Assembly (NCBI GenBank): GCA_020429045.1
Contig: JAGQLS010000007.1
Coordinates: 1 to 64,000 of the forward strand
Length of the DNA stretch: 64,000 nt
Source: Candidatus Woesebacteria bacterium
Lineage (GTDB): Bacteria > Patescibacteriota > Microgenomatia > UBA1406 > GWC2-37-13
Direction: 5' to 3'
Position numbers and translations under genes: made by a program. Of this stretch, positions 9,614 through 20,781 are shown piece after piece (within the stretch, counting starts at the first letter, position 1; the number at the start of each line of letters is the position of its first letter). The notes beneath the pieces are model-generated. The model saw only the letters and a list, made by a program, of their open reading frames with translations, was not told the origin of the DNA and did not search any database.

Positions 9614-12600
9614 ATGGCAGGTATATTTGATTTTATAAAGAAGAAAACCCAAAATGCAACTGATCCGCAGGCGCAAACTCCTCAGAGTAGCGGCACACCT
9701 TCAAATCCGGCGCAACAACAGCAAGTCCAAGTAGTATCTCAATCTATACAGCAGCCCGTGCAAAAGACACAAAGCTATAACGGCATCGGAACTTCTCCCT
9801 CAGGGTCATCATACAACGGTATTGGTTCGGCTCCTGTGGGACAAAGGTATAGTGGTATCGGCAGTCCGTCCACGAGCGCGATTCCCTACAGTGGGATCAA
9901 TTCCGATACTGCACCGCAGACGGTTATAAGTTCACCACCTCCATCTGCTTCACCCAAGTCTCAGCCTTCTTCCCTTGGGTCGAATGTATCAAAGTCTGTA
10001 CAATCTACAACTATTACACCAGCCGATTCCAAACTTTCAACAGGGGCACAATCGAGCAGTGTCAAGTCAGCTGTTAATCCGGCCATTCGCAAAGATACGA
10101 TAAACGATCAACTCGCTTCTGCCCCCCAAGACGCAAAAAATACCGTCAACAATTCATCTCAAAAATCAAAAGTTGCAGTAGGAACTCCATCAGAAACAGC
10201 GCCAAACGATATGTCTCAAAAGCAATTGTCTTCCACAGACAATACAACGAGCCAAAACGGTTCAAGCCCCAGCGCTGCAGGCCAAACAAATCAGCCACAA
10301 GCTTTACAATCAACCATAAACAATAAAAAGCGAGCAGCGCTTGATGTTATGACTCATTTGACTCATCGTTCGAATGCGGTGTTTATGCAAGCCAACAACA
10401 AAGCGCTCGAGTTGCATAACCAGTTTGTAGACAGCGAGCACCTCTTGGCGGGTTTATTGACCGACGGCGAAATTTTCAAGATATTTGTCGATCTCAAGAT
10501 GCAGCCGCAGGTTATCGAGCAAGAGCTTATCAAAAACTACAAAAAAGAATCATTCAAAGAAAAACCCCAACTTTCGCCACGCGTTAAACAGATTATCGAG
10601 AATGCGCTTGACGTTGCTCGCAAACTAGGATACGAATTTATTTCACCCGAACATTTACTCCTTGCCTTATTTGATGAAGGAGAAGGTGTCGGTGCGCGTG
10701 TTTTGACCAAACTTGGATTACAAAAAGAAGATCTCAACAAGCGCATCACCGGCAAAAAAGAAGGGGTGACAGCGGTCAAACCCGGAGAAGCAACTGTCAA
10801 ACAACAAAAAGAACAAAGCGCTTTAGCAAAATACACGATCGACCTTACTAAAAAAGCAGAAAATCACGAGCTTGATCCGGTTGTCGAACGCTCCGAAGTG
10901 ATTGAACGCGTTATACATATCCTTTCGCGCAGGATCAAAAACAATCCTGCGCTTATTGGCGAACCGGGTGTGGGGAAAACCGCGATTGTTGAAGGCTTGG
11001 CACAGCGTATTGTCGATCACGAAGTGCCCGAAGGCCTTTTAAACAAGCGCATCGCACAACTTGACCTTGCCAGTATCATCGCTGGAGCGTCGCACAGAGG
11101 TGAATTTGAGGAACGTATGAAAGCCTTGGTCGACGAGCTCAAAGCCAATAATGACAAATATATTCTTTTTATCGACGAAATGCACACCATGATGGGCGCA
11201 GGTAGCGGTGAGGGAGCGCTTGACGCTTCAAATTTTATAAAGCCGGCACTTGCCCGAGGAGAAATACAATTTATTGGCGCAACGACCATCACTGAATATC
11301 GCAAATACATTGAAAAAGATGCTGCACTTGAACGCCGGTTTCAAACAGTTCTTGTTCCTGAACCAAAGCCCGAAGCTGCGATCAAAATGCTCAAAGCCTC
11401 CCGTGACAAATATGAAGCATTTCATAAAGTAAAAATTCCTGATGAGACTATTGAACTTGCAGTGAAACTTTCCAAACGATATATTGGCGACCGTTTTTTA
11501 CCGGACAAAGCGTTTGACCTCATGGATGAGGCAGCAGCTGCAGTTCGATTGCCCCTCATTTCTCTGCCAGAGGAAATAAAGTCAATCGAAGCCCGGTTGA
11601 GCCAATTGCAACAAGAACTTAAAGAGTGCGAAACCAAAGGTGACGAGGTGCGCGCTCGTATCACGAGGTCAAAAATACAAGAAGTGCAAGATTCTCTCAA
11701 GGGCAAACAAGACGAATACAACATGCGCAAAGCTCAGACCACAACCCGAGTCACTGACGAGATTATCAAATCAATCATCGCGGAGCGCACCGGCATACCT
11801 GTTTCTCGTATCTCTACAACTGAAGGAGACAAATTAGTCAAACTTGAAGATATCATTCACAAACGCATGGTTGACCAGGAACGCGCAGTTGCTGCAGTTT
11901 CCCAGGCGATACGCCGTGGCCGTGCGGGATTAAAGTCGAATAAGCGTCCGATTGGAAGTTTTGTATTCTTAGGTCCAACCGGGGTAGGAAAAACAGAACT
12001 TGCAAAAACCGTATCCGAAGTGCTGTTTGACGATGAGGAAGCAATCATTCGCTTTGACATGACTGAGTATATGGAGCGTCACGAAGTAGCAAAATTGTTG
12101 GGGCCGCCGCCAGGCTACGTAGGTTTTGAAGAGGGAGGTAAACTGACCGAAGCAGTTCGTCGCAAACCATACTCACTTGTTCTGTTTGACGAAATCGAGA
12201 AAGCACATCCTGACATTTTCAATATTCTCTTACAAATCCTTGACGACGGGAGGCTTACCGACAACAAAGGGCGGACGATTTCGTTTAAAAATACTGTTGT
12301 CATCTGCACCTCAAATATCGGCACCAAGATGATTCAGGATGAGATGCTCAAATCAGGCAACAATGATGTTTCAGAGCCGCCAGTCTTATCGACTTACACC
12401 TTTACCCCGCGTGGTAGAGAAATTTTAACCATCGGAAACAAATACTTTGAACGTGATGGTGTTAAGCAAAGCTCAACAGGGAGCACGCCAACTTCTGCTG
12501 CAACCACCACATCGGTTTCCAAAGACAACATGAGTCCCACAAAAGATGCAAGTCAATCATCGTCCGCCTCATCGTGGGCTGACCATACGATTGTCGAATA

Positions 12601-14089
12601 TTTTGCTGGCCAAAAAATACAAGGAAAAGAAGCAAAAAAAACTGAAGCACCGATGTTACAAGATCAGCAAACAGAATCCACAGACGAGCAAAAGGATCGT
12701 TCACCAACAACAGACCAACAAACAGCATTCCCAACATTTGGATACGATACGCAAGCGATTTCTCCACAAGGAGTAGAGGTTGTAACCAAGGGAGGCACCG
12801 TTTTTATGCGTAACGCAACTACCTCTAAAGTGTGGGAGGTAACCAATCTTATCGATTATTTTGCAGAAAACGTGGTTGTCAATGCGTTACCTGATGCACC
12901 AGACGAGCAGCTTCCGACTATTCGCCTTAAAACACATGCTTTTAGTCCCGACGAGACGCAAATTGTAACCTTCAAGAATCGTTTTTGGAAACGTAAACCA
13001 GGCACCAAAGATTGGGAAACAGGCCTACTGAAGGATTATTTTGGAAAATCATCAACAGAATCTTTGCCCATCTCACATTGGGATATTCATACGTTTTCAC
13101 CAAAAAACAGAGAAATAATTATTATGGGCAACTTTGTATGGTTTAAAGATCCAGGTCAAATGAATTGGATCAAGCAATCGCTCTCAGATTATTTCGGCGT
13201 CGATTTCCCGCTTGACAAAGAATTGGAAGAAAAAGAAAAAATCGATTTGCAGTCTGGCACAAAGCATTACGATCTCATCAAGGAACGCGTGATGAATGAG
13301 CTTTTGAAGTTTTTCCGCCCCGAACTGGTAAATCGTTTTGATGAAGTAATTGTATTTGAGCCACTCAAGTTTGTGCACATGATCGACATCGTGAAGTTGC
13401 AGCTCAAGAGTGTGACCAAACTCCTTGAGGAGCAAAATATCGGATTTAACGCAACCGATAGTGCAATAAAAGCGATCGTGAAAGAAGGGTTTGATCCGAT
13501 TTTTGGAGCACGCCCGTTGCGACGGGCGATTCAACGATTGGTGGAAAATCCCATTTCCGAGATGATTATAGCCAAGAAAGTAAAAGATGGAGACATTATA
13601 GAAGTCGATTACAATGGAGAAGAATTGATGTTTAATGTTGTGACAGGTGTTGCTTCAGGTTCATACAAAGCGTCAGATGAACACATTGCTGAACATATCC
13701 GAGCCTATTGTCAAACAAACGGCTCAACACTTTCACGTAGTATGGACAACGCTACACCACTTTGTAAACAGTATTGGGCCGAGCAAGAGACAATAAAGTC
13801 ATCAGAAACAAAAAAAACATCTACAAAACCAAGTGAAACAATAACAAAGGATGATGCATCGACAAGTGATATAAAAAAAACAGAATCTTCATCTTCCCCG
13901 AGTCAGAAAGATTTGTTCGAGGATATCAATAAACAACTGAGCGCTAGTATGGTAGATGCGAAAAAAGATGGTGCAAAAAGTGAAGCCCCCGTGTCGCCCA
14001 GTGCAAGCATCATGACTCCGCCTCCAACAATGTCTATGCCTCCACAACAAGCAGTCGATGTAGTACCAAAGCCACAAATTATCAACTAA
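9614..14089 (+). CDS. ClpC-like AAA+ unfoldase with a four-repeat insertion and long disordered tails
   Basis: A 1491-residue Hsp100 protein, against about 810-850 for ordinary ClpC. Order: a Ser/Gln/Pro-rich tail (1-235) with four Y-x-G-I motifs; a Clp N-domain (about 239-385); AAA module 1 with Walker A GEPGVGKT at 449-456 and Walker B LFIDEMH; a short ClpC-type coiled middle region (about 655-700); AAA module 2 with Walker A GPTGVGKT at 787-794 and Walker [10 protein letters not shown]; then about 300 inserted residues (914-1212) directly after TSNIG; then the rest of module 2 ([22 protein letters not shown]) and a low-complexity tail. The insertion holds four units of the form H-x-F-S-P...E-I...G-N...W...D-Y-F (starts near 925, 1040, 1105, 1154). 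ClpA/ClpC carry their ClpP-docking loop at this point and no I/L/V-G-F tripeptide is visible, so ClpP-independent work is inferred. It sits inside the secretion-like locus. Confidence 0.9.
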
Positions 14090-14092
14090 TCT

Positions 14093-14437
14093 ATGAATCT
14101 TCTTGCTCAACGAATAAATATTGGCGGCGTTGTTATTGAAGGTCCACTCAAGTGGGAATTCGATCCTGCTCATCCAGGGCTCGACCAGCCACAAACCATT
14201 GGAGATGTCATCAACCGCGCGTTGTTATTCGCTATCCCATTTGCAGGTGTTATTCTTTTTTTTGTCATTATTGCTGGGGGGTATGACATCCTGACTTCAG
14301 CTGGGAATCCCGAAGCGCTCAAAAAAGGACAGGGCAAAATTACCACCGGCTTCATTGGGTTTGGTATATTGGCGCTTTCGTACACTGCAGCACAAGTGGT
14401 TGGCTACGTATTTGGTCTGGGGGGAGGAATTTTATGA
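14093..14437 (+). CDS. VirB2/TrbC-like small membrane subunit
   Basis: A 114-residue protein. A short polar start leads into two hydrophobic helices (about 45-66 and 82-105) separated by a cytoplasmic-type turn with SAGNPEALKKGQGKI. The two-helix hairpin with G-N-P-E-A-x-K-K is typical of VirB2/TrbC-like pilin-family proteins of Patescibacteria and matches the C-terminus of the protein at 4312-5310. There is no cleavable signal with a clear site. It starts 3 bases after the ClpC-like gene, so the two are probably cotranscribed. Its 3' end overlaps the convergent nucleotidyltransferase gene by 6 bases. Confidence 0.72.
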   Translation: MNLLAQRINIGGVVIEGPLKWEFDPAHPGLDQPQTIGDVINRALLFAIPFAGVILFFVIIAGGYDILTSAGNPEALKKGQGKITTGFIGFGILALSYTAAQVVGYVFGLGGGIL

Positions 14438-15271
14438 AGATTTTTTGAAATATTTTACTGCCTTTTCGTAGTTTGCTGGATTTCCCACATCAAACCATTC
14501 GCCTTCAAACATATACCCGCTCACTTTACGGTTTTCGATGAGTCGTGCACATACATCCTCAAGGGAAAACGAGTCTTTTTTTGGGAAATATTGAAATATT
14601 TCTGGCTCAAACGCATAGATACCACAATGAATCAGATGGGTTTTGATATGTTTTTTATCGCTTTGGGGATAGAAATTTACCAGGGTATTGCCGCGGATAT
14701 GGAATTGTCCAAACTCACCCGGGTTATCGGCTGTTGTGACTGCTATGGTAGCTATTTCCCCAGTTTCTTTGTGAAAGTCGCCGAAATCATTGTAGGGAAA
14801 ATGAGCAACAATATCGCCATAGATGACAAAAAAGGGCTCCTGTTGCAATACCTTTTTTATCTTTTTCAGAGCGCCGCCCGTTGAAAGATCCTGGGTCTCC
14901 TGAGAATAGGTGATAGATACACCAAACCGCGAACCGTCTTGGAAGTATTCTTTGATTTTGTTCCCCAAATAGTTAATCGCAATGATGATTTCAGTAATAT
15001 TATTTTTCTTAAGTTCCAAAATAGTGTGTTCAAGGAGTGGTTTGCCAGAAATCGGCAGAAGCGATTTGGGAATCTCGTATGTGTAGGGTCGTAAGTGCGT
15101 ACCATGTCCTCCTGCAAGAATTACCGCTTTATGAATCTGCGCTTGTGTGTGTTGGCTTATAATATACTCGATCGCATGCGAGCGATTGCGGATTATTTCT
15201 TTATCAATGAGGCGATCGACCTTTTTCAGGAGTGTATTATCAAGGGTAATAGTAATTCTTGATCTTCGCAT
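14432..15271 (-). CDS. Ribbon-helix-helix DNA-binding domain fused to a sugar nucleotidyltransferase
   Basis: A 279-residue fusion. Residues 1-45 look like a ribbon-helix-helix (CopG/Arc type) DNA-binding domain: a strand RITITLD, helix NTLLKKVDRLIDKE and helix SHAIEYIISQH. Residues 47-279 are a nucleotidyltransferase of the sugar-1-phosphate type (GGHGTHLRP at 54-62, PKSLLPI, YGDIV, EGEWFDVGNP), which would make an NDP-sugar from NTP and sugar-1-phosphate. The signature Arg of GG-x-G-T-R-L-R-P is His59 here; Lys69 is kept. The gene has a strong leaderless promoter (TTGACA-17-TACAAT) whose -35 lies inside a perfect palindrome shared with the divergent UMP kinase promoter, suggesting it represses itself. 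The substrate sugar cannot be told from sequence alone. Confidence 0.82.
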   Translation of the reverse strand: MRRSRITITLDNTLLKKVDRLIDKEIIRNRSHAIEYIISQHTQAQIHKAVILAGGHGTHLRPYTYEIPKSLLPISGKPLLEHTILELKKNNITEIIIAINYLGNKIKEYFQDGSRFGVSITYSQETQDLSTGGALKKIKKVLQQEPFFVIYGDIVAHFPYNDFGDFHKETGEIATIAVTTADNPGEFGQFHIRGNTLVNFYPQSDKKHIKTHLIHCGIYAFEPEIFQYFPKKDSFSLEDVCARLIENRKVSGYMFEGEWFDVGNPANYEKAVKYFKKSS

Positions 15272-15277
15272 ATTACC

Positions 15278-15306
15278 ATTGTATCTGAGAGGTTGATTTT
15301 TGTCAA
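15278..15306 (-). promoter_or_regulatory. Strong leftward promoter TTGACA-17-TACAAT
   Basis: Reading the minus strand, a consensus -35 TTGACA (15306-15301) is followed after 17 bases by TACAAT (15283-15278). The ATG of the RHH-nucleotidyltransferase gene at 15271 is 6 bases further on, so the mRNA would be leaderless. It overlaps the rightward promoter. Confidence 0.65.
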
Positions 15307-15312
15307 AATCAA
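15293..15312. promoter_or_regulatory. Perfect palindrome, candidate operator between divergent promoters
   Basis: TTGATTTT (15293-15300) and AAAATCAA (15305-15312) are exact inverted repeats around a 4-base centre. The site contains the -35 box of the rightward promoter and most or all of the -35 of the leftward promoter, so a bound protein would block both. The adjacent gene encodes an RHH DNA-binding domain, the natural candidate to bind it. Confidence 0.5.
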
Positions 15313-15321
15313 GAGTATAAT
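15293..15321 (+). promoter_or_regulatory. Rightward promoter TTGATT-17-TATAAT
   Basis: The -35 TTGATT (15293-15298) and perfect -10 TATAAT (15316-15321) have 17-base spacing. Transcription would begin near 15328 and pass through a leader peptide and terminator before the UMP kinase gene. I saw no other promoter between the terminator and that gene. Confidence 0.6.
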
Positions 15322-15342
15322 CGGTCTAGCTATACATATCTT

Positions 15343-15387
15343 ATGTGCATTCATATTTTTTGTAAACAACTCATTTTTTTGTACTAA
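15343..15387 (+). CDS. Candidate 14-residue leader peptide with U-tracts
   Basis: An ATG-to-TAA frame of 14 codons (MCIHIFCKQLIFLY) inside the transcribed leader of the UMP kinase gene. Its DNA contains a T6 and a T7 run. It ends 15 bases before the stem of the downstream terminator, close enough for a ribosome at the stop codon to hinder the hairpin. Short frames arise by chance in AT-rich DNA, so it is called only because of its position. Confidence 0.35.
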   Translation: MCIHIFCKQLIFLY

Positions 15388-15402
15388 ATTATTAGTATTT
15401 GT

Positions 15403-15428
15403 AACCGCTTGAAGAAGCGGTTTTTTTT
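15403..15428 (+). terminator. Intrinsic terminator in the leader of the UMP kinase gene
   Basis: An 8-bp stem AACCGCTT / AAGCGGTT with a GAAG loop runs into a T8 tract, ending 12 bases before the ATG at 15441. Lying between the promoter at 15293-15321 and the gene, it must be read through for expression, which makes it a candidate attenuator. Confidence 0.75.
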
Positions 15429-15440
15429 CGCACTAAATCA

Positions 15441-16787
15441 ATGTTTTTCAACAACAAAGAACCACCCATAGTTTTTTCCATAGGAGGGTCGCTCATCGTA
15501 CCCAATGGTGGGCCGGACACAAAATTTCTCACTGAGCTCAATCACTTTATCCGCACCTATGTCAAACAAGGAAAGCGGTTTTTTTTAGTCGCAGGTGGTG
15601 GTAAACTCGCCCGATCCTATAGAGATACTGGCAAGAGCGTGATCGGCGGTATGAGTGATACCGATTTGGATTGGCTCGGTATCCACTCAACGCGTTTGAA
15701 TGCGCATTTGCTACGTACGATTTTCGAAGATATTGCACACCCTCGCATCATTGAAAACTACGACAAAAAGCTTGCCAAATGGAAAGAGCCTGTTGTTATC
15801 GGCGCTGGTTGGAAGCCAGGGTGGTCGACCGATTACGACGCCGTGGTACTGGCCAAAGACTATGGAGCACAGCTTATCATCAACCTCACCAACATAGATG
15901 GCGTGTATACCAAAGACCCTAGACGCTACAAAGGGGCGAAACGCATCGAAAAACTGACATGGGCTGATTTAGAAAAACTTGTTGGTACCAAATGGGAGCC
16001 AGGAATCAACGCACCTTTTGATCCGATCGCCGCGCAGCTTGCACGCAAACTCAAACTCACCGTTATCGTTACCGACGGCTACAATTTCAAAAATCTAGGC
16101 AAGATCATGGAATCTGACTCTTTCAAAGGCACCGTGATAACGCCATTTCAAATTTCTGCAGGATACTATAATCGAGAATACTACCGAGCCGAAGGTTCGG
16201 CGTACCGTTTTACCAAAGAAGGTGCCAGCATCAATACATTTCTCCGCACGCTCGCAAATTATTATCGCGCGTTTTTTATACGATATGTACTGAATCCAAA
16301 AAATTGTCTTGATGTAGGATGTGGAACCGGATCGCTTGTCAAGATCCTACGCACCTTTGACATTGATGCCTACGGTGTTGAGATTTCAGAAGCTGCACTT
16401 GAGATGGCGGACAAAAGTGTCCGCCCTTTTTTGTCTCAAGGCGATATTACTAAACTTCCCTTTAAAGAAAACGAGTTTGATTTGGTATTGACGTTTGATG
16501 TTTTGGAACACGTCGACAGGTCATATATCAAGCGGGCGATACAAGAGACGATCCGTATTTCTAAAAAATATATTTTGCACAAAATTTATACCAGAGAAAA
16601 TTTGTGGATTCGATTTTTTCACCGCATCGATCGTTCACATGTATCGGTATACACATATCGCTATTGGAAACGATTGTTTCACGAAAACCCACATGCCGCG
16701 TTGCAGCGTCATTCGATTTTCCATTTGCCACAGATTATGGAATCAGTCTTTCTCTTAAAGAAGAAACCCACAACAACTTCTTCCTGA
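15441..16787 (+). CDS. UMP kinase fused to a SAM-dependent methyltransferase
   Basis: A 448-residue two-domain protein. Residues 1 to about 232 form an amino-acid-kinase-fold UMP kinase of the archaeal-like type: FSIGGSLIVP, VAGGGKLARSYRD, DLDWLGIHSTRLNA, and NLTNIDGVYTKDPR. This domain should phosphorylate UMP to UDP with ATP. Residues about 240-448 are a class I methyltransferase: DVGCGTGS at about 291-298 (motif I), GVEIS, and LTFDVLEHV, resembling methyltransferases of the UbiE/Methyltransf_11 type, substrate unknown. The frame is continuous across the junction, so the fusion is real unless the assembly is wrong. recF follows after 12 bases. Expression probably depends on the leader terminator at 15403-15428. 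Confidence 0.85.
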   Translation: MFFNNKEPPIVFSIGGSLIVPNGGPDTKFLTELNHFIRTYVKQGKRFFLVAGGGKLARSYRDTGKSVIGGMSDTDLDWLGIHSTRLNAHLLRTIFEDIAHPRIIENYDKKLAKWKEPVVIGAGWKPGWSTDYDAVVLAKDYGAQLIINLTNIDGVYTKDPRRYKGAKRIEKLTWADLEKLVGTKWEPGINAPFDPIAAQLARKLKLTVIVTDGYNFKNLGKIMESDSFKGTVITPFQISAGYYNREYYRAEGSAYRFTKEGASINTFLRTLANYYRAFFIRYVLNPKNCLDVGCGTGSLVKILRTFDIDAYGVEISEAALEMADKSVRPFLSQGDITKLPFKENEFDLVLTFDVLEHVDRSYIKRAIQETIRISKKYILHKIYTRENLWIRFFHRIDRSHVSVYTYRYWKRLFHENPHAALQRHSIFHLPQIMESVFLLKKKPTTTSS

Positions 16788-16799
16788 TACAATATCGAC

Positions 16800-17849
16800 A
16801 TGCATATTGCCAAGATTAAGCTTCGCAATTTCCGCTATTTTAAAGAAACGGAAATTGAATTGAGCCCGACAGTCACTCTCATCGTCGGCGAGAATGCGCG
16901 TGGCAAAACAAGTTTGTTGGAAAGCATTTATACCGCACTGTACGGAACAGGCTTTCGTGAATCCCGCGAAGAACAACTCGTACACTGGGAGGAAGAAAGT
17001 GCTTTGGTCGAGTGGGTCGGCGATAGTCAAAATCAACGTTCTCTTCAGCAGGTGGTTATCAAACGTACACCGACAAAGAGGGTACAAAAGCAGTTTTTCA
17101 TCAATAAATCAAAGCAAACCTATCGTGCGTATCGTAAGCAGAAGTGGGGAGGCGTGTTGTTTGCTCCCGAGGACATACGGATCATTACCGGTTCGCCTTC
17201 GCGCAAACGGGATTATTTCGATTTAGTGCTTTCGCGCCTTGATCCAGTGTACAAAAAATATATCAGACAGTACAAAAGCGCACTGCGCAGCCGCAACTTA
17301 CTATTGGTAACGATTGATAACGAGCAGGAGCTTGCCAAACAACTGGTGTTTTGGAATGAATATTTGATTGAACGTGCTACGTATCTTTCTACAAAACGGC
17401 AGGAATATGTTGATAAACTTAACTCCCACAACGCTTTAAACGATAAACGATTTGAAATTATCTATAAACAAGATGCTATGACTCCAGCACGTCTTAGCGG
17501 TATTTTTACAAAAGAGTGTAGCGTTCGTCGCACGCTCGTTGGTCCTCATCGCGATGAGTATATGTTTTATCTTCTTTCTCCGAATAAAAAAGATGTAGGG
17601 GTTTTTGGTTCGCGCAGTGAACAGCGGATGACACTACTGTGGCTCAAAGTAAATGAAATTACCATCTTGGAAGAAGCATTTGAGCAAAAACCAATTTTGC
17701 TTTTGGACGATATTTTTTCTGAACTGGACTTGCATAATAAAGATGTGGTTGCCGGCCTGGTTGAGAAGTATCAAACTATTATCACCTCAACTGAGGATAA
17801 TCTGGGGGAAGTCGACTACAGTGCCTGGCAAGTGGTTAGACTGGTATAA
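16800..17849 (+). CDS. recF: DNA replication and repair protein RecF
   Basis: A 349-residue SMC-like ATPase that loads RecA at single-strand gaps. Visible features are the N-terminal KLRNFRYFKETEIEL strand, Walker A GENARGKT (about residues 31-38), a central KRTPTKR region and PSRKRDYFD, the ABC signature-like SRSEQRMTLLWLKVNE, and Walker B LLLDDIFSELD near residue 305. Length and motif order match RecF, with no coiled-coil arm as in SMC or RecN. It follows the UMP kinase fusion on the same strand and ends just before tRNA-Ser. Confidence 0.9.
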   Translation: MHIAKIKLRNFRYFKETEIELSPTVTLIVGENARGKTSLLESIYTALYGTGFRESREEQLVHWEEESALVEWVGDSQNQRSLQQVVIKRTPTKRVQKQFFINKSKQTYRAYRKQKWGGVLFAPEDIRIITGSPSRKRDYFDLVLSRLDPVYKKYIRQYKSALRSRNLLLVTIDNEQELAKQLVFWNEYLIERATYLSTKRQEYVDKLNSHNALNDKRFEIIYKQDAMTPARLSGIFTKECSVRRTLVGPHRDEYMFYLLSPNKKDVGVFGSRSEQRMTLLWLKVNEITILEEAFEQKPILLLDDIFSELDLHNKDVVAGLVEKYQTIITSTEDNLGEVDYSAWQVVRLV

Positions 17850-18244: not shown

Positions 18245-18913
18245 ATGAAGGTTCATTTTCGTCGACGAATTTCAAGACAGAAATATAGCATACTTTACAA
18301 TAGTTTTGTGGCAGATATTCCTGCAAGAAAAGCCGCAGGAATAGCATCGGTAAACAGAAAAACAGTAAACAGATATTTTACATTGTTTCGAGAAGTAGTT
18401 CTGCAAGAAGCATATTATGAAAGAACGAACATATCTTTGAGAAATGGTGTTGAGATAGATGAATCATACTTTGGAGCGCGTCGTGTACGAGGAAAGAGGG
18501 GGCGAGGAGCAGGTAGGAAGGTTATCGTATTTGGTCTTTTGAAGAGAAATGGGAACGTATACACCAATATCATTAAATCAGCTGAAAAACAGGCGGTTAT
18601 GCCCATCATACGACGTGTGGTACAATCTGGATCCGATATATACTCAGATGGATGGAGAAGTTATGATGCTCTTGCTGTATACGGGTACAACCACAAGAAA
18701 ATAAAACATACAAAGAGTGAGTTTGCACGTGAGGATGGAACACATATCAATGGCGTTGAATCATATTGGTCATGGACGAAACGAAGACTAGCAAAGTTCA
18801 ATGGACTAACCAAAGAACAATTTCGAAAATATATGTTAGAATCAGAATGGAGATTTAATCATAGAAATACACTTTCTATTGATCTTAAAAAGTTGCTCAG
18901 AAAGTTACGTTAA
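18245..18913 (+). CDS. IS1595 (ISXO2-like) family transposase
   Basis: A 222-residue DDE-type transposase that would cut and join the element ends. An N-terminal helix-turn-helix-like stretch (ARKAAGIASVNRKTVNRYF) precedes the catalytic core: IDESYFGARR with Asp72, IYSDGWRSYD with Asp135, and HINGVESYWSWTKRRL with the third catalytic position near 169-172. The basic R-R-V-R-G-K-R-G-R-G segment after the first Asp is typical of ISXO2-like proteins. The frame is intact. It lacks the N-terminal zinc ribbon of longer IS1595 transposases. Confidence 0.9.
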   Translation: MKVHFRRRISRQKYSILYNSFVADIPARKAAGIASVNRKTVNRYFTLFREVVLQEAYYERTNISLRNGVEIDESYFGARRVRGKRGRGAGRKVIVFGLLKRNGNVYTNIIKSAEKQAVMPIIRRVVQSGSDIYSDGWRSYDALAVYGYNHKKIKHTKSEFAREDGTHINGVESYWSWTKRRLAKFNGLTKEQFRKYMLESEWRFNHRNTLSIDLKKLLRKLR

Positions 18914-19728: not shown

Positions 19729-20742
19729 CTACTTTGAATCCGAACGATCGGTCAGGTGTTTGTTAAAAACTTCTAATGGCGTGTAATAACCTAAACATTT
19801 CCGTGGTCTGTTATTGATCTCCCACAGTATATCATCTAATTCGTCTTGGGTAAGGTCTGAAAAGTCTGTTCCTTTGGGCAGATACCGGCGTATTAATCCA
19901 TTATGGTACTCGTTTGTTCCTCTCTGCCAGGATGAGTACGGATCGGCAAAATAGGTATCCATATTGAGTTCTGTTTTTAATTTGAAATGCAAATGATTCT
20001 CTTTTCCATTATCCAGTGTTGTTGAGCGCCTGGCTTTTTCGGGCAACTCTCCAAAGATCTCCTTTTGTGCCCGTACGCCTTCCGTAGAAGATATTTCCTT
20101 TACCTTAACGGCGAATGTTATCCGGGATACCCGTTCAACCTCTGTGTGTATTCCATCTCCTACACTTCGTCTTCCTTCAACCGTATCGCCTTCAAAATGG
20201 CCAAACTCGGTTCTTCTCTCAATTGTTCCAGGCCTTGAATGAATAGAAATACGATCGGGAATACGGGAGTGGTGAACTCCTCGCCCTTTTTGTTTTTTTC
20301 TCTTTTTCTGCTTGCGTGGTAGATATTCCCATAATCCCTCTTTTTTGTTTTGTGGATCAAATACATATTGGTAAATTGCCTCGTGCCCAATGGTTTTATG
20401 GTAGTCTCCTTTGTGCTTGAGTTTTAATCGTCCTTCTATTTGTTCGGGGCTCCATCCCATACCCAGGTGTTGGGTAACGTACCGGTAAATCCATTTGTTT
20501 TTAAGTCGTGGTCGTTTTCTTCTTGTAACCATTCGTTGATCGGCTTCTTCCTGGGCAAATATTGCCTCGTAGACAAAATTTTGTTTCTCTCTATCCCACC
20601 TCCTATTTCTTTTGATTTCGTCACTTATCGTGCTTTTACTCCTATCAAGTCTTCTGGCAATTTCGCTTAACTTGACTCCCTTAGCCAGAAGAATTGCTAG
20701 TCTGTCACGCTCTTGGGGAGTTAGTTTTCCTATTTTTTTCAT
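19729..20742 (-). CDS. IS30 family transposase
   Basis: A 337-residue DDE transposase. The N-terminus has a helix-turn-helix (LSEIARRLDRSKSTISDEIKRN) typical of IS30. The core shows GHFEGDTVEG (first Asp), TLDNGKEN (second Asp) and WQRGTNEYHNGLIRRYLPKGTDF (catalytic Glu). ATG 20742 was chosen over the upstream in-frame start at 20769, which lies inside the inverted repeat. The reading frame passes through the left inverted repeat and uses a TAG in host DNA at 19729-19731, so the last two codons come from the target gene. Confidence 0.92.
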   Translation of the reverse strand: MKKIGKLTPQERDRLAILLAKGVKLSEIARRLDRSKSTISDEIKRNRRWDREKQNFVYEAIFAQEEADQRMVTRRKRPRLKNKWIYRYVTQHLGMGWSPEQIEGRLKLKHKGDYHKTIGHEAIYQYVFDPQNKKEGLWEYLPRKQKKRKKQKGRGVHHSRIPDRISIHSRPGTIERRTEFGHFEGDTVEGRRSVGDGIHTEVERVSRITFAVKVKEISSTEGVRAQKEIFGELPEKARRSTTLDNGKENHLHFKLKTELNMDTYFADPYSSWQRGTNEYHNGLIRRYLPKGTDFSDLTQDELDDILWEINNRPRKCLGYYTPLEVFNKHLTDRSDSK

Positions 20743-20781
20743 ATCGAACGATTTTACACTAACTCTCAATCGTTCGGATTC
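19736..20781. mobile_element. IS30-type insertion sequence
   Basis: The element is 1,046 bp. The outermost 13 bases match exactly (GAATCCGAACGAT at 19736-19748 and its reverse complement at 20769-20781), with weaker similarity for about 15 more bases inward. The target duplication would be only TT (19734-19735 and 20782-20783), in keeping with the 2-3 bp duplications of IS30. It splits the methyltransferase gene. Confidence 0.82.

Follow-up and report, generated by a model that had tools for sequence, protein, structure and literature searches.

How are two genes controlled that diverge from an intergenic region of only 169 bp, one encoding a fusion of an RHH DNA-binding domain with a sugar nucleotidyltransferase (NTase), the other, pyrH, a UMP kinase fusion? 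The question was raised by a 64,000-nt stretch of Candidatus Woesebacteria DNA (contig JAGQLS010000007.1, positions 1 to 64,000; hereafter the window), for which the original prediction had proposed that a perfect palindrome containing the -35 boxes of two back-to-back promoters serves the RHH enzyme as an operator for both genes. Sequence and profile checks (Pfam, TIGR) confirmed the two promoters, the palindrome, which is exact at 15293-15312, the leftward RHH-NTase fusion and the rightward UMP kinase fusion. Two features of the same strip had been missed, a 14-codon leader ORF and an intrinsic terminator in front of pyrH, and it is these that offer the better-supported control of pyrH than an RHH operator. 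The strip and its flanks comprise the following elements.

14432-15271, minus strand: fusion of RHH with a degenerate sugar NTase, 279 aa (RHH approximately residues 1-43, NTase residues 48-273, by Pfam)
15278-15283, minus strand: TACAAT, the -10 box of the leftward promoter (all 14 aligned genomes share the column block ATTnTA)
15293-15298, plus strand: TTGATT, the -35 box of the rightward (pyrH) promoter (TTG invariant; present also in fusion-free genomes)
15293-15306, no strand: conserved 14-bp core TTGATTTTTGTCAA, a pseudo-palindrome TTGAY-N4-RTCAA (possible RHH site, else two facing -35 boxes)
15293-15312, no strand: exact 20-bp palindrome TTGATTTT-TGTC-AAAATCAA (8-N4-8) of the original prediction, its outer arm not conserved
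15301-15306, minus strand: TTGACA, the -35 box of the leftward promoter (GTCAAA unchanged across the 14 aligned genomes)
15316-15321, plus strand: TATAAT, the -10 box of the rightward promoter (TATAnT invariant in the 14-genome alignment)
15328-15430, plus strand: predicted pyrH leader RNA of ~100 nt (start placed by inference ~7 nt past the -10 box; folding z -2.4)
15343-15387, plus strand: leader ORF MCIHIFCKQLIFLY followed by a stop, 14 codons, the stop 15 nt upstream of the hairpin
15403-15422, plus strand: terminator hairpin AACCGCTT-GAAG-AAGCGGTT, -11.1 kcal/mol (different GC stems in homologs)
15421-15428, plus strand: U8 tract of the terminator, read from the sequence (whole terminator 15403-15428)
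15441-16787, plus strand: pyrH, whose product joins an archaeal-type UMP kinase (TIGR02076, 193 bits) to a class-I methyltransferase, by profile search
16800-17849, plus strand: RecF-like ATPase (SMC_N/AAA), by profile search

The minus-strand promoter (TTGACA-17-TACAAT, 15306-15278) matches the consensus at 11 of 12 positions and gave the top score in 15 kb, and the plus-strand promoter (TTGATT-17-TATAAT, 15293-15321) matches at 10 of 12. Since the leftward -10 box lies very near the ATG, transcription of the fusion gene is predicted to start at or adjoining this codon, probably yielding a leaderless or near-leaderless mRNA. On the other side, the RecF-like ATPase gene is probably co-transcribed with pyrH; in one genome (L016) this gene adjoins the fusion at the place of pyrH. 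The left flank (14093-15271) shows the gene order ClpB/C-like ATPase, T4SS-pilin-like gene, then pyrH, with the RHH-NTase gene lying convergent to the pilin gene and the two ends overlapping. As fusion-free genomes have pilin and pyrH in tandem, the RHH-NTase gene looks as if it had been inserted between them. By eye, the ClpB/C-like ORF (9614-14089, 1491 aa) shows an N-terminal extension that is long and rich in Ser, Thr and Gln, and its second AAA region contains an additional inserted stretch. Transposase-like ORFs are located at 18245-18913 and 19729-20769, the second of which is IS30-like by eye.

Within the window, the palindrome is the sole copy with fewer than three mismatches, and no other perfect copy exists in the 1.19-Mb genome. 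When the intergenic region was shuffled, 5.7% of the shuffles yielded a perfect inverted repeat whose arms were 8 bp or longer. Homologous fusions were gathered from the family and the order, and 14 divergent fusion/pyrH intergenic regions were aligned. Conservation proved to be limited to the two promoters and a 14-bp core of the TTGMTTTTTGTCAA type, all invariant columns falling in -10 or -35 boxes or at box edges. The facing -35 boxes are kept at a fixed distance across the homologs (TTGMTTTTTGTCAA, TTGACGAAAGTCAA, TTGACTTTTGTCAA and similar). The right outer arm AAAATCAA is unique to this genome among those aligned; the others have CAAAGCAA, CAAAAGAC, CAAAATTT and the like. Two TTGA.. boxes that face each other are bound to form TTGA..TCAA, so that the surprise is limited to the additional arm bases, and those are unconserved. 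Genome-wide pattern searches revealed no second intergenic copy of the palindrome or the core. A role of the palindrome as a regulon site was considered and rejected, its near-copies being intragenic only (in dnaK at C58, a small gene at C54 and two others). Judged from these comparisons, the 20-bp operator is not supported, but the 14-bp core may still be one, because all 14 genomes keep the 4-bp gap between the TTGA and TCAA boxes. According to the original prediction, a similar site should recur upstream of homologous fusions. The core indeed did so in the 14 divergent pairs, but neither core nor palindrome was found upstream of four fusions without a divergent pyrH (L016, L018, L021, L022), for which the prediction is thus refuted on its own terms.

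The putative regulator itself was analyzed by profile search and structure modelling. The fusion ORF scored 21.6 bits with RHH_1 (PF01402; cut-off 20.5) and matched NTP_transferase (PF00483) with 5e-40. The strand-helix-helix order of an RHH domain is given, with helices at residues 12-21 and 30-41 in a weak AlphaFold model, whose quality (pLDDT 51) was too low for folds to be compared. The NTase domain is nearest to MurU and mannose-1-phosphate guanylyltransferases (NF045761, 162 bits), yet stays under every family cut-off; PDB entries 7whr and 8hhd go with this fold and family. Sugar-1-phosphate nucleotidyltransferases are marked by the signature GXGXR...K (PMC5982138, PMC6981941). In the fusion, Lys69 is retained and the arginine is replaced by His59 (GHGTHLRP), a departure from the signature of active NTases. 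This arginine was lost in 20 of 21 fused NTases, where H, N, Q, K, S, E, G or a deletion took its place, but kept in 9/9 unfused relatives (Fisher 7e-7, a value which ignores relatedness). In two fusions (L019, L020) the entire segment with the signature lysine is gone, and in two others (L021, L022) the motif has disappeared and GD has changed to AD. The NTase is probably catalytically inactive and the protein looks like a sensor rather than an enzyme, whose fold may have been retained on a DNA-binding domain for ligand sensing or dimerisation. The loss of the arginine also makes it unlikely that the fusion balances NDP-sugar synthesis through its own catalysis, as had been suggested.

A sensor of this kind could repress itself at the TTGAY-N4-RTCAA core, shutting off its own gene together with pyrH, and could be released, PutA-like, when its degenerate NTase binds a nucleotide or nucleotide-sugar. 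We regard this as quite possible, if short of probable. The RHH strand MRRSRITIT and the stretch RNRSHAIEY are invariant among the fusion homologs while the NTase signature decays, and the constant box spacing points in the same direction. Moreover, although the original prediction could name no described enzyme-repressor of such make-up, there is a precedent for an RHH enzyme-repressor that controls two genes: PutA represses its own gene and putP (PMC5293562). On the other hand, the invariant columns all belong to promoter elements, the four fusions named above have no core site, and the TTGATT box exists also without a fusion: where no fusion gene adjoins pyrH (L053, L061, L066), its -35 box is ordinarily TTGATT or TTGACT. 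What has held of the shared self-operator is the divergent pair with its interleaved -35 boxes and, in 14 genomes, the invariant spacing and RHH strand; the recurrence of the 20-bp palindrome has not. A second explanation, to which we give about the same probability, is that the -35 boxes merely face each other, that the RHH domain acts elsewhere or just oligomerises, and that the extra arm matches are due to chance. It is consistent with the restriction of the outer arm to this genome, with the frequency of 8-bp inverted repeats in the shuffles and with the intragenic location of the remaining near-copies, but the invariant spacing and the T-rich middle (13/14 genomes) exceed strict promoter needs.

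The rightward transcript led to a different kind of control. The start codon of pyrH lies 12 nt downstream of the U8 tract, and as this distance is too short for a second promoter, pyrH would be expressed by read-through only. An Rfam search revealed no leader or riboswitch family at gathering score, the only match being an unrelated tRNA, and a search of a phage collection gave no match. The first-listed terminator-like site of a 15-kb scan resides at 16406-16433 (GGCGGACAAAAGTGTCCGCC followed by CTTTTTT; 8 pairs, 6 of them G-C) and falls within that portion of the pyrH fusion gene which encodes the methyltransferase.

To characterize the leader, the DNA upstream of approximately 50 pyrH genes of the family was read or scanned. 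About half of the pyrH genes of the family have no leader at all, whereas 28 genomes contain a promoter, a leader of about 30 to 93 nt and a GC hairpin plus U tract, followed by pyrH at a distance of 0-18 nt. An ATG is situated 7-22 nt past the -10 box in all 28 leaders (11.5 expected from dinucleotide shuffles), the position at which the leaderless-type pyrH of sister genomes has its own start codon. In 27 of the 28, against 5.4 expected, the ORF stops no more than 20 nt short of the stem, or else continues into or past the hairpin; in 200,000 simulated sets of shuffled leaders at most 16 such placements were reached, a significance that overstates independence, since the leaders are phylogenetically related and were delimited partly by eye. 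The distance from stop to stem amounts to 5-19 nt in 22 leaders, and in six the ORF overlaps the hairpin. Terminator stems vary in sequence while their pairing is kept. The same architecture was found next to an RHH fusion and also without one (L058, L060, L061, L066 and others), and thus belongs to pyrH. Outside the family it also occurs in L108, L111 and, with a GTG start, L109, which represent two more families of the order, whereas 20 genomes of other Patescibacteria classes disclosed no leader-ORF attenuator and have pyrH mostly inside operons. When the window and another 400 kb of the home genome, 464 kb in all, were scanned as background, no further unit of promoter, leader, terminator and gene came to light. 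In the family f18 (L120, L127, L134, L137), the promoter is followed after ~10 nt by a hairpin, a U tract and directly by the pyrH ATG. These leaders have no room for an ORF, possibly represent an independent kind of pyrH attenuation, and were left out of the tally.

Neither the leader peptides nor their codon content are conserved across the 28 leaders (e.g., MNTNYSGIKP, MHTYKKIYLCQ, MTYKII, MYQLLING). Pairing between the leader and the terminator arms did not exceed chance (mean P 0.71, 0/28 below 0.05), which disclosed no antiterminator. The leader of the window contains 48% T. The leader ORFs have 36% T versus 34% A, the set average for T being 36-41%; T is thus not clearly above A, and UTP-dependent pausing leaves no general sequence mark.

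Promoters, ORF, terminator and their conserved geometry can be read directly from the genomes, as can the lack of an antiterminator and of a conserved peptide. We propose, with a probability of roughly 0.55, that pyrH is governed by a translation-coupled transcription attenuator of the pyrE/pyrBI type with a short leader ORF; from its layout we infer that the ORF is translated, that read-through is regulated and that UTP is the signal. The RNA polymerase would make a short 5' end, on whose leader ORF of ~10 codons ribosomes would load at once, and the intrinsic terminator just ahead of the pyrH start codon would either block the polymerase or let it pass. A ribosome following closely behind the polymerase would hinder the hairpin and thereby raise read-through. 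At low UTP, a slow polymerase would lead to tighter coupling and more UMP kinase; at high UTP, the polymerase would outrun the ribosome and terminate. As UMP kinase makes UDP, the precursor of UTP, such a feedback would make sense. The main alternative signal is the general translation status. Whether the ribosome would act in this direction is not certain, because stops 10-19 nt upstream would allow a terminating ribosome just to clear the hairpin. The home genome also encodes a pyrB homolog and PyrG. Upstream of pyrB (L209, ~1455-1485, G000:C57) we noticed the sequence TAAAAT-TTAC-T9-ACTG-ATG, in which a T9 run adjoins a -10-like box, a possible UTP-sensitive slippage site at initiation as in pyrBI or upp.

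Self-repression by the RHH protein could act alongside the attenuator. Two-level control from one 170-bp region, by an RHH repressor whose former NTase senses nucleotides or nucleotide-sugars and by a UTP-tuned attenuator, nevertheless appears rather doubtful to us. We consider it still more improbable that the terminated transcript of ~100 nt is a stand-alone small RNA or encodes a small protein, pyrH being served by constant leak-through. A strong promoter and a strong terminator would suit such a product, but its length varies, sequence and peptide are unconserved, Rfam gave no match, and it is the geometry in front of pyrH that has been conserved. An amino-acid-sensing leader peptide of the his/trp type with alternative hairpins, which a short ORF preceding a terminator might suggest, is very improbable, as the 28 leaders share no codon runs and contain no antiterminator pairing.

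The conserved putative leader-ORF attenuator, together with the degenerate NTase-RHH protein, is a stronger result than the operator reading. Very little is known about gene regulation in Patescibacteria/CPR. A search of the open-access literature found no description of a UMP kinase leader-ORF attenuator or of an RHH-NTase fusion; in the related ultra-small bacteria the attenuator is apparently undescribed. If our reading is true, these reduced cells meter pyrimidine nucleotides by transcription-translation coupling, an arrangement that recurs in three families of one order, and the pyrH leader would be an easily transplantable test element. The fusion would be the second case after PutA in which an enzyme fold was joined to RHH for gene control, with catalysis apparently abandoned.

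Attenuation of pyrE and pyrBI depends on UTP. The pyrBI leader possesses a reading frame of 44 codons and an intrinsic terminator but no antiterminator, and coupling is needed for read-through. In E. coli pyrE, passing the attenuator likewise needs close transcription-translation coupling (PMC11148124). The pyrH leader resembles rph-pyrE and pyrBI of E. coli in that a pyrimidine gene lies behind an intrinsic terminator, a reading frame ends before the hairpin or runs through it, and an antiterminator is absent. It differs in its target, a UMP kinase, in its patescibacterial host, in that the regulation is deduced from sequence, and in having a near-leaderless ORF of ~10 codons of its own instead of the upstream gene rph or the 44-codon leader. 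With MurU and the mannose-1-phosphate guanylyltransferases the C-terminal domain of the fusion shares the fold and the nearest sequence family, but it remains below the family cut-offs, has lost the arginine of GXGXR and is fused to RHH. PutA (RHH - proline dehydrogenase/P5C dehydrogenase) likewise carries an N-terminal RHH domain on a metabolic-enzyme fold. While PutA controls its own gene and a second one, DNA binding and control of a second gene are putative for the fusion, whose catalytic fold is a different one and probably inactive.
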